Shown here in pieces: positions 50,733 to 55,195 of a DNA stretch of 64,000 bases (positions are counted from its first letter, which is position 1; each line of letters starts with the position of its first letter). This stretch comes from Granulicella mallensis (lineage in GTDB: Bacteria > Acidobacteriota > Terriglobia > Terriglobales > Acidobacteriaceae). The notes beneath the pieces were generated by a model. It was not told the origin of the DNA. It saw only the letters and a program-made list of their open reading frames with translations, and ran no database searches. A program made the translations under genes and the position numbers. The stretch spans positions 62,001 to 126,000 of the forward strand of contig NZ_JACHIO010000009.1 of assembly GCF_014203225.1 (NCBI RefSeq), written 5' to 3'.

Positions 50733-51536
50733 CTACTCCCCCGCCGACACAACGCCCCTCACAGCCTCGGCGATCACCCCATCCGCCGCCTCACCCACAT
50801 CACCCGAATCCAGCAACGACTCCATCGCCCGCCCAATCAGCAACAGCAACGGCGCAGGCCCACAGGTAAGCCCGGCCAATTCCGACAGCCTGCACGCAGC
50901 ATAGCTCTGCCGCGGCGTCGCCGCCTGCGAGATCGCACAGCACGGCGTATTCCCCGAAACACCCGCGGCAGCAAGCTCCCGCGCGATCCGTTCGGTATCC
51001 CGACCCGGCATGTAGAGAACCAGAGTAGCGTCCTCCGGCAGCGGCCCCGCCCAGATCGGCGTAGCCTCCGTCTTGTCCGCCGCATGATGCCCGGTGCAGA
51101 AGATCAGCTTGGACGCACTCTTGCGATCCGTAAGCGGCAGCGATAGCGCGGCCCCCGCAGCAAACGCCGCAGTCACGCCGGGCACCACCTCAAAAGGAAT
51201 CCCCGCCGACCGCAGCGCCGCAATCTCTTCTCCCGCACGCCCAAAGACCAGCGGGTCGCCACTCTTCAGCCGCACCACGGATTGCCCCGCCTTCGCGGAG
51301 TCGATCATCAGCGCATGAATCCCCGCCTGCGTAATGCGCGGCCGTCCGCAACGCTTGCCGACACTGGTAATCAACGCATGGCGATGAACCAACGCCAGCA
51401 CCTCATCCGGCACAAGGTCGTCGTGGAAGACGACATCTGCCGACTCCAGCAGTCGCAGCGCACGCAGCGTCAAAAGCTCCGGATCGCCCGGTCCTGCGCC
51501 CACAAGATAAACCGTTCCCTTCACCGCCTGGGTCAT
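50733..51536 (-). CDS. cobA: Uroporphyrinogen-III C-methyltransferase
   Basis: The enzyme makes precorrin-2 by two SAM-dependent methylations of uroporphyrinogen III. The product is 267 aa: VYLVGAGPGDPELLTLRALRLLESADVVFHDDLVP start, RLKSGDPLVFGRAGEEIAALR, and VTAAFAAGAALSLPLTDR. Its ATG at 51536 overlaps the stop of the upstream gene as TGATG (a GTG lies one codon before), so translation is coupled. It is the third gene of the sulfite-reductase operon and supplies the siroheme precursor. Confidence 0.95.
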   Translation of the reverse strand: MTQAVKGTVYLVGAGPGDPELLTLRALRLLESADVVFHDDLVPDEVLALVHRHALITSVGKRCGRPRITQAGIHALMIDSAKAGQSVVRLKSGDPLVFGRAGEEIAALRSAGIPFEVVPGVTAAFAAGAALSLPLTDRKSASKLIFCTGHHAADKTEATPIWAGPLPEDATLVLYMPGRDTERIARELAAAGVSGNTPCCAISQAATPRQSYAACRLSELAGLTCGPAPLLLLIGRAMESLLDSGDVGEAADGVIAEAVRGVVSAGE

Positions 51537-52183
51537 CACAAAATCTCCTCAGCAGAAAGGAATCCATGTTCCTGCGCGTGCTGCCGCGCTCTCATCCGCG
51601 AAGGGCAGCCATCATAGCCGCAGACCTCGCGCTGTGCGAGCTCATGCAGCAACAGCTTGCGCGGCTCGCCAATGGGTTCCACCGCCGTGACTTCACGCCG
51701 CAGACGGCCAAGCTCCGCCAGCCACTCCCCGGTATCCAGCGGCAACTGCGCGTTGATCTCCTTGCGCAGCCGCTGCGCCAGCGCGGGACTCTCCCCAGCA
51801 GTAGAGATAGCGATCTGCAACTCGCCGCGCCGCACTACAGACGGAAAATAGAAGTCGCAGAACGGAGGATCGTCGACCGCATTGCAAAGAATATCCGCCG
51901 CATTGGCCTCGGTGAAGACCGCGCGATTCACCGTCGGCGTTGCCGTAGCAGCTACAGCAAGAAACGCTCCGGCCAGATCGCCAGGCGCATACTCACGCCG
52001 ATGCCACTGAAGCTCCCCCGCCTCAGCCCACTCCTGAACGCGCGGCAACGCCTCGGGAGCGATGACCGTAACCCGTGCCTCCGCAAGCAGCAGGCTCTCA
52101 ATCTTCGACTCGGCAATGAGGCCCGCGCCGACAACGACGCAGGGCCTGGCCGTAAGTTTGAGGAAGATCGGAAAGAGACTCAT
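51536..52183 (-). CDS. Precorrin-2 dehydrogenase / sirohydrochlorin ferrochelatase
   Basis: A Met8/CysG-N-type protein of 215 aa. The NAD-binding start is MSLFPIFLKLTARPCVVVGAGLIAESKIESLLLAEARVTVIAP, with CNAVDDPPFCDFYFPSVVRRGELQIAISTAGESPALAQRLRKEI. It oxidises precorrin-2 to sirohydrochlorin and, in bifunctional members, inserts iron to give siroheme. It lies 10 bp after the sulfite reductase gene and overlaps cobA by a TGATG junction, so the whole siroheme branch after uroporphyrinogen III is in the operon. Confidence 0.9.
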   Translation of the reverse strand: MSLFPIFLKLTARPCVVVGAGLIAESKIESLLLAEARVTVIAPEALPRVQEWAEAGELQWHRREYAPGDLAGAFLAVAATATPTVNRAVFTEANAADILCNAVDDPPFCDFYFPSVVRRGELQIAISTAGESPALAQRLRKEINAQLPLDTGEWLAELGRLRREVTAVEPIGEPRKLLLHELAQREVCGYDGCPSRMRARQHAQEHGFLSAEEIL

Positions 52184-52193
52184 CGTTGCATCC

Positions 52194-53921
52194 TTAGCCT
52201 ACATTCGCCGGAACACGGCCCGGCGCGGGATCGCGCTCGACCGCCGAAACCACCGCTCCCGCAAGCTGTGCCCGCAGATCCTCATCGCTGGTACGCCGGA
52301 AGTAGCTGCGCAGACTCTCGCCCTCCGCACGCGTCGACAGATACCCGCGCAGCAGACGTTCGATAGCCTCCGGGCAGTCCTCTGCCGTAGCGCGATAGCC
52401 GATCTGGCGCGCAATACCAGCATATTCGCCCACCGCCCCGCCGACGCAGAAGTAGTAGGCATCGACCATCTTGCCATCCTTCTTGATCTTCTTGCCTTCC
52501 AGTCCGAGGTCCGCAATCCAGCTCTGGCCGCAGCTGTTCGTGCAGCCCGTCACATGCAGCCGCAGCTGCTGATCGAACTCCGGAAGGCGCTCTTCCATCT
52601 CTCCCACCAGCCACTTGGTAAAGCCCTTGGTCTCCGCGATCGCCAGTTTGCAGAACTCGGTGCCGGTGCAGGCCACAGCGCCGCGATAGAAGACCGTCGG
52701 CTCAACCTGCAGGCCCAGCCCGGTGATCTCCTGTACCAGCGTTGGAATCTTCGCATTAGGAATGTTGACCAGCACGATGTTCTGTCCGATCGTGGCGCGC
52801 AACTGGCCATCGCCGGAGGTCTCGCTCAACGAGGCCAGCGAGTGCAGTTGGTCAGCCGTAAGCCTGCCGTTCAGAACCGTCGCCCCGACGTAGCTCAGGC
52901 CTTCCTGCTTCTGGCGATGCACACCAACGTGGTCGCGATAGAGGTCCTTGGCAATCGGCCCTTCCTCGCACGGATCGAACTTGAAGCCCAGCTTCTCTTC
53001 AATCGCCGCCAGCATCGTCTCCGCAGTCCAGCCATTGCGCATAAAGAGGTACTTGATGCGGGCACGGGTGCGGTTCTCACGCAGCACTTCCTGCTCGCGG
53101 AAGATCTCGCAGACCGCCTTGACGGCGTCATAGGCCTTGTCCTGCGGGATAAACGCATTCATGCGCACCGCGAGATGCGGCTCGGTCGAAAGACCGCCGC
53201 CGACACGCAGGCTATAGCCGATCTCTTCCTTACCATCCTTCACGCGCTTCAGCGCAGTAAGAGCGACGTCGTTGATCTCCGGATAGCTGCACCAGAGCGG
53301 GCAACCGGTAACCGTGATCTTGAACTTGCGCGGCAGGTTATAGAACTCCGGATTCGCCGTCAGCTTGTGCGCGATCTCCACCGCCAGCGGAGAGGCATCG
53401 ATCAACTCATCGGCATCGAGCCCGGCAAGCGGGCAGCCGGTCACGTTACGGACCACGTCACCACAAGCGCCCTTGGGCGAAAGCCCAATCGCCGTCAATG
53501 CGTCAACGACCTCGGGCAGCGACTCAATCGTGAGCCAGTGCAACTGTATGTTCTGGCGCGTCGTGATGTCGGCTATGCCCCGTGCATACTTCGCGGTGAT
53601 ATCGGCGATCACGTGGAGCTGCTTCGCGGTCAGCATGCCATTGGGCAGGCCGATGCGCATCATGAAGTACTCGCTGGCCTTCCCCTCACCGCCGACGCCG
53701 CCGGTCACGCCGACGCCATCGCCCTGCGTGTAGACGCCCCACCACTTGAAGTATGTCCCGGTCCACTCCGGCAGTACGCTGTCGCGGCCTTCGCGCGCAA
53801 ACTGCCGCACCTCATCCCAGGCATTCCAGGGATTCTTCTCACGCTTCAGGCGTTCGACCTTCTGGGCTTTGGTCTCTTTGGGCGCGGCTACGGGCGTCGC
53901 GGGGGTTGCTGTGTCGCTCAA
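52194..53921 (-). CDS. Ferredoxin-type assimilatory sulfite reductase (NirA/SirA family)
   Basis: The product is 575 aa with two sulfite/nitrite reductase half-domains and the 4Fe-4S/siroheme cysteines C418, C424, C460 and C464 (ACTGTEFCK, GCTNSCGQ). The substrate-binding basics are R122 (TTRQNIQLHW), R158 (VVRNVTG) and K199-F-K201 (NLPRKFKI). Nitrite reductases of the plant type carry K-x-N here, whereas sulfite reductases carry K-x-K, favouring reduction of sulfite to sulfide. Downstream siroheme genes and the Cys-rich upstream leader agree. Family names in databases may still say nitrite reductase. Start ATG 53921 follows a terminator-bearing leader. Confidence 0.88.
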   Translation of the reverse strand: MSDTATPATPVAAPKETKAQKVERLKREKNPWNAWDEVRQFAREGRDSVLPEWTGTYFKWWGVYTQGDGVGVTGGVGGEGKASEYFMMRIGLPNGMLTAKQLHVIADITAKYARGIADITTRQNIQLHWLTIESLPEVVDALTAIGLSPKGACGDVVRNVTGCPLAGLDADELIDASPLAVEIAHKLTANPEFYNLPRKFKITVTGCPLWCSYPEINDVALTALKRVKDGKEEIGYSLRVGGGLSTEPHLAVRMNAFIPQDKAYDAVKAVCEIFREQEVLRENRTRARIKYLFMRNGWTAETMLAAIEEKLGFKFDPCEEGPIAKDLYRDHVGVHRQKQEGLSYVGATVLNGRLTADQLHSLASLSETSGDGQLRATIGQNIVLVNIPNAKIPTLVQEITGLGLQVEPTVFYRGAVACTGTEFCKLAIAETKGFTKWLVGEMEERLPEFDQQLRLHVTGCTNSCGQSWIADLGLEGKKIKKDGKMVDAYYFCVGGAVGEYAGIARQIGYRATAEDCPEAIERLLRGYLSTRAEGESLRSYFRRTSDEDLRAQLAGAVVSAVERDPAPGRVPANVG

Positions 53922-53954
53922 GTCTGTTCTCCAGGTCAGGAATCAAAGCAAAAA

Positions 53955-53977
53955 GGCCCACGAAACTTTTCGTGGGC
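53955..53977 (-). terminator. Intrinsic terminator in the sulfite reductase leader
   Basis: Read on the minus strand it is GCCCACGAA, a 4-base loop AAGT, TTCGTGGGC and then CTTTTTGCTTT. It is a 9-10 bp stem followed by a U-run, pointing at the reductase gene 34 bp downstream. A terminator upstream of the gene it precedes is the hallmark of attenuation. Readthrough must be regulated for the operon to be expressed. Confidence 0.85.
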
Positions 53978-53999
53978 ACTTAGGGAAATCGTCAATCTG

Positions 54000-54043
54000 T
54001 GCTCGCTATCGAGCAACCAACATCGACGCCCCGGTGCCGGGGC
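54000..54043 (-). promoter_or_regulatory. Two leader hairpins after the Cys codons
   Basis: GCCCCGG-CA-CCGGGGC (54043-54028) begins inside the third Cys codon of the leader ORF. TGCTCG-ATAG-CGAGCA (54015-54000) carries the leader stop TAG in its loop. A ribosome stalled at the Cys codons would cover the first stem's left arm, and one reaching the stop would sit on the second. Which alternative fold competes with the terminator needs a folding calculation. Confidence 0.6.
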
Positions 54044-54077
54044 AAAGACAACAGGTTGCGATGCGCGAAAAGCTCAT
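54006..54077 (-). CDS. Cys-rich leader peptide of the sulfite reductase operon
   Basis: This 23-codon ORF (ATG 54077-54075, TAG 54008-54006) reads MSFSRIATCCLCPGTGASML then VAR. Codons 9, 10 and 12 are Cys (TGT, TGT, CTT, TGC in order with Leu at 11). It lies just upstream of hairpins and an intrinsic terminator before the reductase gene. That is the layout of an amino-acid attenuator: low charged tRNA-Cys stalls the ribosome and could prevent termination. No Shine-Dalgarno precedes the ATG. A -10-like TACCCT (54090-54085) sits 7 bases upstream, so the mRNA may begin at the start codon (leaderless). Cysteine attenuators with polycysteine leaderless ORFs are known in mycobacteria; finding one here is new to me. 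Confidence 0.7.
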   Translation of the reverse strand: MSFSRIATCCLCPGTGASMLVAR

Positions 54078-54084
54078 ACAACTA

Positions 54085-54113
54085 AGGGTAACGGGAATGA
54101 GCGCTGGAAGCAA
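54085..54113 (-). promoter_or_regulatory. Candidate promoter of the attenuated operon
   Basis: Minus-strand TTGCTT (54113-54108), a 17-bp spacer and TACCCT (54090-54085) would start transcription at or next to the leader ATG at 54077. Both boxes match the consensus only in part (TTG, TA...T), so the call rests mostly on the spacing. Confidence 0.4.
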
Positions 54114-54129: not shown

Positions 54130-54275
54130 ACCGCAGCACTTGCCTTTGTCGCTGCTTCTGCCTTTGCTTTTCTGGTTGTCATTCCCGCAGGGAACCTGCT
54201 TCTGCCTTTGTCGTTGCTCTTGCTTTTCTGGTTGTCATTCCGAGGCGCAGCCGAGGAACCTGCTTCCTCCCGTTC
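54130..54275. repeat. REP-like repeat pair, family A
   Basis: Two cores in direct orientation: GTTGTCATTCCCGCAGGGAACC near 54175 and GTTGTCATTCCGAGGCGCAGCCGAGGAACC near 54232, each preceded by a TTGC/TTTGCC-rich run. It lies directly upstream of the sulfite reductase promoter and downstream of phhA. Confidence 0.8.
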
Positions 54276-54316: not shown

Positions 54317-55081
54317 CTACCCCAACCGCGCCTCTGCCTCTTTCGTCGCCTCATAAATCTGCTCAAACGACTCAATCGCGTACAGCACCTTCTGCATATT
54401 GCCAGTATCGACCTTCTCCTCCAGCACCTGATCCAGATTGAAGTCCCGAATCTCCAACCCGGCAATCCGCTCAACCACCTGCGTGCACTCTCCATGCGAC
54501 GAGATCAGCCCGCTGCCATAGACCTTGATCGCACCCCGCTCGCGAATCACGCCAAACTCCACCGTGAACCAGAAGAGCCTCCCCATGCGCTCCAGGGCAT
54601 CCGCACTCGTCAGCCCCGCGCAGACCTTGCCATAGTGCTCCAGGAAGTCCGCAAAGACCGGGTGCGCATGCATCGGCACATGCCCGAAGACGTCATGGAA
54701 GATATCGGGCTCCGGCGTGTACTCCATCGACTCCCGGCTGCGAATCCAGGTCGTCGTCGGAAACATGCGCGCGGCCAGCATTTCGAAGAACGCATCGGCC
54801 GGCAGAAACCCGCTCACCGGGGTCGACTGCCACCCCGTACGCGGCTGCAACCGCTTGCTCACCGCAGTCAGATCGGGCAACTGGTCGGCCTGCAGTCCGA
54901 TCTGGTGGAAGCCGTCGAGATACTCCGCACAGGCATGCTGCTCCAACTGCGGCATGCGCCGCAACACAAGTTCGCGCCAGATATCATGCTGCTCCGGCGT
55001 GTAGCCGGCCCAGTCCTGCTGGATAAGAAACGGTTCTGCGGCGTGCAGCTTCGTGGGGGTCGGAATAGCGGCAACGAACAT
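54317..55081 (-). CDS. phhA: Phenylalanine 4-hydroxylase
   Basis: The enzyme converts phenylalanine to tyrosine with O2 and tetrahydropterin. The product is 254 aa from the ATG at 55081 (AGGAGA 6 bases upstream); ATG 55108 would lie in the leader. It has the iron-binding facial triad of aromatic amino acid hydroxylases: DIFHDVFGHVPMHAHP (two His) and FTVEFGVIRERGAIKVYGSG (Glu). Length matches the single-domain bacterial type. A -10-like TATAGT lies at 55160-55155. Confidence 0.94.
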   Translation of the reverse strand: MFVAAIPTPTKLHAAEPFLIQQDWAGYTPEQHDIWRELVLRRMPQLEQHACAEYLDGFHQIGLQADQLPDLTAVSKRLQPRTGWQSTPVSGFLPADAFFEMLAARMFPTTTWIRSRESMEYTPEPDIFHDVFGHVPMHAHPVFADFLEHYGKVCAGLTSADALERMGRLFWFTVEFGVIRERGAIKVYGSGLISSHGECTQVVERIAGLEIRDFNLDQVLEEKVDTGNMQKVLYAIESFEQIYEATKEAEARLG

Positions 55082-55195
55082 GAAAACTCTCCTGCGAACC
55101 CCGAGCAACCCGGCACCCCTTCAAGGTGCGCCAGCGCTGTCTCCAGCTCGACCCACTATAAGACCAGATAAACCAAACAAAAGACAAGCCTGGTG

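Follow-up and report, generated by a model that had tools for sequence, protein, structure and literature searches.

Classical attenuators of the his and trp operons in Proteobacteria follow a four-strand logic, and their leader open reading frames (ORFs) have a 5' untranslated region with a ribosome-binding site. In the polycysteine attenuators of mycobacteria, control is exerted via masking of the ribosome-binding site. Attenuators of C. glutamicum were reportedly described by Neshat et al. in 2014 as leaderless transcripts.

Leaderless polycysteine short ORFs of mycobacteria were reported by Canestrari et al. 2020 (via PMC9031893). Cys-run leader ORFs had been predicted before mycobacterial cys operons by Seliverstov et al. 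2005 (PMC1262725), who found no conserved terminator hairpins at these leaders and suggested Rho. The uORFC-8-2 element before cysS in Rhodobacterales has a Cys upstream ORF (uORF) and an intrinsic terminator, and its description predicts transcription attenuation (PMC8632094). The leaders trpL1, leuL2, and ilvL of Streptomyces lividans are presented as leaderless leader-peptide attenuators (PMC8079986). For Acidobacteria, 9.7 to 19.4% of genes were predicted to be leaderless in the three genomes of an earlier survey (PMC3160421). A leader-gene survey covering Acidobacteria dealt with the distance to the next gene, and its account of these genes assigns no amino-acid attenuator there (PMC4833913). 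In the literature consulted, mainly open-access full text, no attenuator of the kind described below was found in Acidobacteriota.

Here, the leader of sir in Granulicella mallensis was analyzed within a window of 64,000 nucleotides, the whole stretch of DNA under study, whose positions are used as coordinates. Judged by its sequence and by those of its relatives, this leader is very likely a cysteine-responsive, ribosome-mediated transcription attenuator with a probably leaderless ORF.

The sir locus of Granulicella mallensis

Three genes follow the leader:

52194..53921, minus strand: sir, NirA-type siroheme sulfite/nitrite reductase, 575 aa, TTG start (structure and profile comparison)
51536..52183, minus strand: siroheme synthase N-terminal-domain gene (precorrin-2 dehydrogenase type), next after sir (profile search)
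50733..51539, minus strand: uroporphyrinogen-III C-methyltransferase gene, third in line (profile search)

The solved structure nearest to the reductase is NirA (1zj8, E = 1.5e-92). Against NCBIfam, the reductase (window 52197-53921, minus strand) scored 235.3 with CobG, just over the cut-off of 234.8, and fell below the cut-off of NirA, so that it may be named precorrin-3B synthase automatically. The sir product presumably reduces sulfite, since a second such reductase in the genome adjoins nitrate-reductase-like genes and since two relatives have sir immediately after a cysH-like gene (labels by eye in both cases). Upstream of the leader, on the same strand, is a phenylalanine hydroxylase gene (54317-55108). 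Two similar stretches, GAATGACAACCAGAAAAGCAA (window 54150-54260, minus strand), sit between that gene and the leader and resemble a short repeated element.

The elements of the leader are the following:

54108..54113, minus strand: -35-like hexamer TTGCTT, with a 17-nt spacer to TACCCT (sequence)
54085..54090, minus strand: -10-like hexamer TACCCT, ending 7 nt 5' of the leader ATG (sequence)
54006..54077, minus strand: leader ORF of 23 codons, MSFSRIATCCLCPGTGASMLVAR*, probably leaderless (sequence and relatives)
54042..54053, minus strand: regulatory codons TGT TGT CTT TGC, Cys-Cys-Leu-Cys (sequence and alignment)
54054..54059, minus strand: strand 1, GCAACC, directly 5' of the Cys codons; pairs with 54018-54013
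54013..54018, minus strand: partner of strand 1, GGTTGC, inside strand 2 (covariation)
53975..54038, minus strand: proposed antiterminator (strands 2 and 3) with a long inner stem (predicted fold)
54028..54043, minus strand: GC hairpin GCCCCGGCACCGGGGC, beginning in the last Cys codon; alternative fold (sequence, folding)
53956..53977, minus strand: intrinsic terminator stem-loop (strands 3 and 4), followed by a U-run (terminator scan)
53928..53932, minus strand: GGAGA ribosome-binding site for sir, separated from the TTG by 6 nt

Cys codons 9 and 10 of the ORF occupy 54053-54048, and Cys codon 12 occupies 54044-54042. A further hairpin, GCTCGATAGCGAGC (minus strand), carries the leader stop codon in its loop. 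The terminator stem has 9 pairs in the scan, with CTTTTTGCTT directly after it. The gap from this stem to the sir start codon is only 34 nt, a stretch in which the sir ribosome-binding site follows the U-run. Most of this layout agrees with an initial annotation of the DNA, in which the 23-codon Cys-Cys-Leu-Cys ORF (54077-54006), the TACCCT 7 bp before its ATG, and the two hairpins, one from the last Cys codon and one with the stop in its loop, were all correctly given. Its intrinsic terminator with U-run (53977-53955) corresponds to the scanned stem at 53977-53956, but the reductase start codon at 53921, which it took for ATG, is TTG.

The folding of the 128-nt leader was better than that of 200 of 200 dinucleotide shuffles (z = -3.14). 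A sigma-70 promoter scan, which needs 9 of 12 matches, listed no promoter at the window's leader. The window's own promoter is therefore a weak match, and the case for it is drawn from the relatives.

Proposed mechanism

From these elements, we infer the start site, the leaderless translation, the ribosome stall, and the response to cysteine that make up the following scheme. RNA polymerase would start at or next to the leader ATG, and a ribosome would load directly at the 5' end with no Shine-Dalgarno site involved, as the promoter spacing suggests. With ample Cys-tRNA, the ribosome would pass the Cys codons, reach the stop codon, and cover a portion of strand 2; on RNA free of ribosomes, strand 2 would be held by strand 1. 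When strand 2 is covered or held, the terminator would form and transcription would end before sir. Under a shortage of Cys-tRNA, the ribosome would halt on the Cys codons and cover strand 1, and strand 2 would then pair with strand 3, the 5' part of the terminator. Polymerase would thereby proceed into the sulfite reductase and siroheme genes. The initial annotation had likewise read the locus as an operon attenuator sensing Cys-tRNA; the conserved Cys ORF and the terminator support this reading, in which a response to cysteine is presumed.

Conservation of the Cys ORF and terminator before sir

The family search gave a reductase match of any kind in 113 of 150 genomes, and 90 upstream regions were obtained from the same family (30 loci and 60 fetched). 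Fragments, paralogues of about 40% and below, and the second copies G052:C116, G116:C58, and G104:C161 were left out. The best 80 of 571 candidate reductases were added from named genomes; among these, the closest named relative by reductase is Granulicella sp. S156 (91%). After the removal of seven regions from Rokuibacteriota/Methylomirabilota, 163 regions were present, and 12 that were near duplicates or shorter than 200 nt were dropped to give 151. Two contigs, L114 and L140, are titled Verrucomicrobia and Opitutia, and their reductases are 83% and 64% identical to that of the window; they are probably mislabelled metagenome bins.

A Cys ORF was defined as an ATG or GTG ORF of 8 to 45 codons, within the last 300 nt, that has a 12-codon stretch containing 3 or more Cys. 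Such an ORF was present in 132 of the 151 sir upstream regions, compared to 3 on the reverse strand and a mean of 14.9 in dinucleotide shuffles. A Cys ORF together with a leaderless-type promoter score of at least 14 was found in 99 of 151 regions and in none of ten shuffle rounds. The final 200 nt likewise contained a terminator-like hairpin of -12 kcal/mol or better in 132 of 151 regions (reverse strand, 19; mononucleotide shuffles, 23), a count in which the hairpin may fall anywhere in those 200 nt and, in a few rows, lies inside the ORF. A hairpin of -8 or better was located downstream of the accepted leader ORF in 126 of 151. On these sequence counts, the occurrence of the Cys ORF and the terminator before sir is not due to chance. 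Conserved small Cys ORFs at sir were thus found in other Acidobacteriaceae, where the initial annotation had proposed to look for them. It had named a lack of conservation of the ORF and its Cys codons as evidence against its reading; the ORF, the TANNNT -10 spacing, and the terminator recur in most relatives.

In an alignment of the window with eight relatives, from which L009, the tenth row of a ten-sequence alignment, was omitted, all nine sequences keep TGT TGT, and seven keep a third Cys codon, either TGC or TGT. Two close relatives retain two Cys codons only. The GGAGA site before sir is present in 10 of 10 aligned sequences. Both Cys codons are in use within the Cys runs (TGT, 442; TGC, 228). 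TGY occurs 670 times in the ORF frame versus 58 and 59 times in the other frames, where the size of the gap alone is informative because the ORF frame was chosen as the densest. The leaders have from 1 or 2 up to 10 Cys codons each, and beyond the Cys run their peptides differ between groups. Even where the flank further upstream fails to align, the Cys ORF and its leaderless-type promoter are still found.

Three Cys in 12 codons were lacking in 19 of the 151 sir regions. Among the poor or missing leaders, L037 has one Cys, L009 and L040 have two, and L051 has none. The sir gene is located behind cysH in L017 and L131 and behind a phoU-like gene in L019 and L027 (all by eye), and the latter two have no leader upstream within the stretch examined. 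A transporter-like gene lies in between in L036, L047, L150, L191, and L167. In the five cases of sir behind a transporter-like gene (YeiH-like by eye), a Cys leader was detected before that gene in four (L150, L191, L167, and L271), and the fifth, L036, covers 1,050 nt only.

Nine distant sir homologues from other families of the phylum were compared, and only one of the nine had a Cys ORF and a terminator near the gene. The distant homologue L259 has a Cys ORF 436 nt upstream without a terminator. In the one with a terminator, L266 (G173), a Cys-run ORF (CCCSCPC) and a terminator of -26.4 kcal/mol stand before a 36% identical reductase. This ORF is not leaderless, its ATG being located some 24 nt past the -10-like TAGGCT, and the leader is either a non-leaderless cousin or a convergent case. 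None of the seven sir orthologues of Rokuibacteriota/Methylomirabilota had a Cys run of this kind. A zinc-ribbon-like short ORF (CPxC...CxRCKxW) precedes sir in L164, L183, L185, L187, and L190 of these phyla (the last by eye).

Spacing between the promoter and the leader start codon

An earlier promoter-spacing table was not used as a test because its start codons were chosen partly by promoter score. In a blind test, the best promoter upstream of the Cys run was chosen regardless of start codons. A Cys run was present in 134 of the 151 regions, and 119 of these had a promoter score of at least 12. An in-frame ATG or GTG was located 5 to 10 nt past the -10 in 101 of the 119, compared to 3 and 5 for the other two frames, and the nearest in-frame start was 6 to 7 nt past the -10 in 69 of 119. 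Most relatives have TTGAC or TTGC at the -35 position with a 17- to 18-nt spacer. Since mapped transcription starts of S. lividans are on average 6.3 nt past the -10 (PMC8079986), transcription is expected to begin at or within a few nucleotides of the leader start codon. This spacing suggests that the leader ORF is probably leaderless. The window is among the 18 misses of the 119 regions, the promoter chosen there having no in-frame start downstream, so the leaderless claim for the window's copy leans on its relatives.

Pairing and covariation of the leader strands

The strand tests were entered by 126 of the 151 regions. Stretches complementary to the terminator arm were enriched in 14-nt segments whose starts lie 3 to 18 nt from the last Cys codon (counted from its first base), close to the RNA that a stalled ribosome would leave exposed. 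Strand 2 paired with its own terminator arm at -11.73 kcal/mol, compared with -10.19 kcal/mol when arms were exchanged among species (0 of 5000 permutations), strands 1 and 2 gave -22.1 (own) versus -18.8 (swapped; 0 of 5000 permutations), and strand 2:3 pairing was better than with shuffled arms in 87 of 126 leaders but not in 39, all in swap and shuffle tests that take no account of relatedness between leaders.

In a Sulfotelmatobacter-type subgroup (n = 20), the sequence of strand 2 nearly duplicates that of strand 4, which would make the switch easy to test. Strand 2 begins 23 nt before the stop codon in 20 of 20 leaders and 174 of 220 strand 2:3 positions pair, both partly by construction, as the peptide ending served to select the subgroup and CTGGC to locate strand 2. 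The conserved ending, GAGRLLT, seems to be a side effect of RNA pairing, since the RNA there is the proposed antiterminator strand.

Among the nine sequences of the window's group, stem 1:2 showed both-sided changes in 4 of 6 pairs, and 8 of 10 terminator pairs were invariant. The hairpin of the proposed antiterminator had 19 cells with both-sided changes, compared to 9.7 in shuffles (0 of 500 reached 19) and at most 9 when slid. Of its 11 pairs with both-sided changes, 10 are in the inner stem, and the outer part, which touches the terminator, had such a change in 1 of 9 pairs. The number of further pair types in this hairpin was not above that of shuffles (24 versus 23.6, nine sequences).

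With a ribosome placed on Cys codon 9, the RNA up to strand 3 was predicted to form a long hairpin with GGCAC:GUGCC, the outer contact of the proposed antiterminator between GGCAC (54038-54034) and GUGCC (53979-53975) at the terminator base. Codon 9 was alone in this among the stall positions tried; no such contact was predicted with the ribosome on codon 10 or 12. The window's folds with a placed ribosome end at 53950, upstream of the sir ribosome-binding site. The folding with an occluded Cys region that the initial annotation had put forward thus produced the contact when codon 9 was occupied, but the contact also formed without a ribosome on RNA cut at strand 3. The terminator is present in every full-length fold, and antitermination would therefore have to be kinetic, taking place during transcription.

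The Cys ORF, its codons, the promoter spacing, the terminator, and the matching of strands 1, 2, and 3 are seen over the set. Over the whole set, the terminator arm and strand 2 match as is expected of an antiterminator; the direct contact covaries little in the window's own group.

Leaders of cysD and hisI

The cysD-cysN-cysH operon of the same genome (G000:C12) is preceded by the GTG ORF MNVTCMCGCRCPQLFGCC, located 7 nt past TAGAAT (L225:9906-9962, minus strand). Its terminator-like hairpin is weak (-9.8), and an inverted repeat, GGCGC...GCGCC, was seen by eye next to the AGGAGG site. This operon may be controlled at translation, given the lack of a strong terminator and the repeat by AGGAGG. 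Among the 30 best of 39 long cysD matches, a Cys-run ORF was found at 25 loci (shuffle mean, 2.2) and a terminator of -12 or better at 19 (shuffles, 1). The leaderless-type promoter was weaker, with 17 of these 30 loci at a score of 12 and 7 at 14. No leader was found at L238, L246, L248, L256, and L257 of the 30; cysD follows an apparent cysH end in L256 and L257, and in L246 it is found some 1.5 kb downstream of sir, with both genes on one strand.

A plain pattern search of the same genome also met a His-run ORF before hisI (L107):

G000:C7:192394-192433, minus strand: His-run leader before hisI (pattern search)

The plain pattern alone proves nothing, since it gave 17 matches versus 14 in the reversed control. 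Among the 30 best of 55 hisI places in the family (L273-L302), leaderless-type His-run ORFs (e.g., MTVLLHHRGQHHHHAQSVLAAVSGAVK) precede the gene in 29, and 25 of the 30 have a His-run ORF with a promoter score of at least 14. At the remaining locus, L296, the 54 nt available upstream are too few for an ORF to be seen. Terminators were found at 29 of these 30 loci (shuffles, 2). No Rfam family exceeded its threshold with the his leader, Trp_leader scoring 17.4 bits versus 41.

A leaderless-type Cys ORF, MAFPLHPCCRCHQPLAG (L096:1537-1590), came from the same plain pattern search and is located in the same genome before a dioxygenase-like/rhodanese fusion gene, of which NCBIfam calls the rhodanese part only and the cysteine-dioxygenase part was assigned by eye. 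It was rejected as a further leader, as no such ORF was found at the one close orthologue among 60 genomes (G040).

It is likely that in the Granulicella/Edaphobacter family leaderless run-codon ORFs with intrinsic terminators form a general layer of amino-acid control. In this candidate layer, Cys runs precede the sulfate-assimilation operons (sir and cysD) and His runs precede hisI. If so, attenuation would run on ribosomes loading at the bare mRNA 5' end, and a set of operons would be coordinated by charged tRNA without a shared protein regulator. Confidence in both the attenuator and the family-wide layer is tempered by the covariation, which is mostly in the inner stem, and by the weaker leaderless spacing at cysD.

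Alternative explanations

The leaderless Cys ORF could control the translation of sir, with the terminator being incidental or tuning the basal level only. Mycobacterial leaderless Cys ORFs are described as acting on translation (PMC9031893), and the weak hairpin (-9.8) of the cysD leader of the same genome, with the by-eye inverted repeat near AGGAGG, would fit this explanation. It is nevertheless improbable for sir, where 132 of 151 regions have a terminator, the terminator's 5' arm fits the strand 2 of its own leader better than that of other leaders, and the ribosome-binding site lies 3' of the U-run. The terminator might instead end the transcript of the phenylalanine hydroxylase gene, which is located upstream on the same strand (54317-55108), with the sir promoter downstream of the terminator and the ORF there by chance. 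Such an arrangement is very improbable: the Cys ORF and leaderless-type promoter occur together in 99 of 151 regions, with a promoter score unmatched by any shuffle, they are found even where the more distant flank cannot be aligned, and the terminator stem is only 34 nt from the start codon.

The Cys-rich peptide itself may be considered as a sensor or product (metal-, thiol-, or siroheme-binding, or an arrest peptide), since some leaders have up to 10 Cys and siroheme genes lie downstream. We give this very little credence, because the peptides vary between groups beyond the Cys run, their alike C-terminal ends (GAGRLLT) coincide with the proposed antiterminator RNA strand, the Cys peptides at cysD are quite different, and hisI shows His runs in the same layout. 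The strong alternative folding of the leader would also be compatible with a ligand-binding riboswitch or another structured RNA without codon reading. The feature shared by the family is, however, in-frame Cys codons with either third base and in variable number and spacing, and Rfam gave only chance-level matches to the sir leader, none over the gathering threshold, making such an RNA extremely improbable.

Comparison with known systems

As a probable transcription attenuator, the sir leader resembles the mycobacterial polycysteine ORFs in its probably leaderless Cys ORF before the operon and in the proposed attenuation by ribosome speed. The initial annotation had cited these ORFs as a precedent, which fits the probably leaderless Cys ORF but not the mode of control, as the mycobacterial case is described as translation attenuation and sir has an intrinsic terminator, which points to control of transcription. 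Since this terminator is present and recurs, and in another phylum, the sir leader is classified as working like the mycobacterial attenuators rather than as a member of that group. The uORFC-8-2 element resembles it in having Cys codons in the uORF, a stem holding them, and an intrinsic terminator; going by its description, it is set apart by its occurrence in Alphaproteobacteria, before a cysteinyl-tRNA synthetase gene, and by its two Cys codons, usually 14-15, and the description does not term it leaderless (PMC8632094). Attenuators of Actinobacteria, as presented in PMC8079986, combine a leaderless leader ORF with a Rho-independent terminator, as the sir leader probably does, but for different amino acids and in a different phylum. 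The four-strand terminator/antiterminator logic would be common to the sir leader and the classical his and trp attenuators, whereas the 5' untranslated region with a ribosome-binding site belongs to the latter.

The mechanism is thus already known, and the sir leaders are a new, widespread lineage of it. Being short and simple, these leaders could serve to report on Cys-tRNA and on leaderless initiation in a phylum that has received little study. For cysteine, they would unite the leaderless Cys ORF and the intrinsic terminator, which the literature consulted reports apart.
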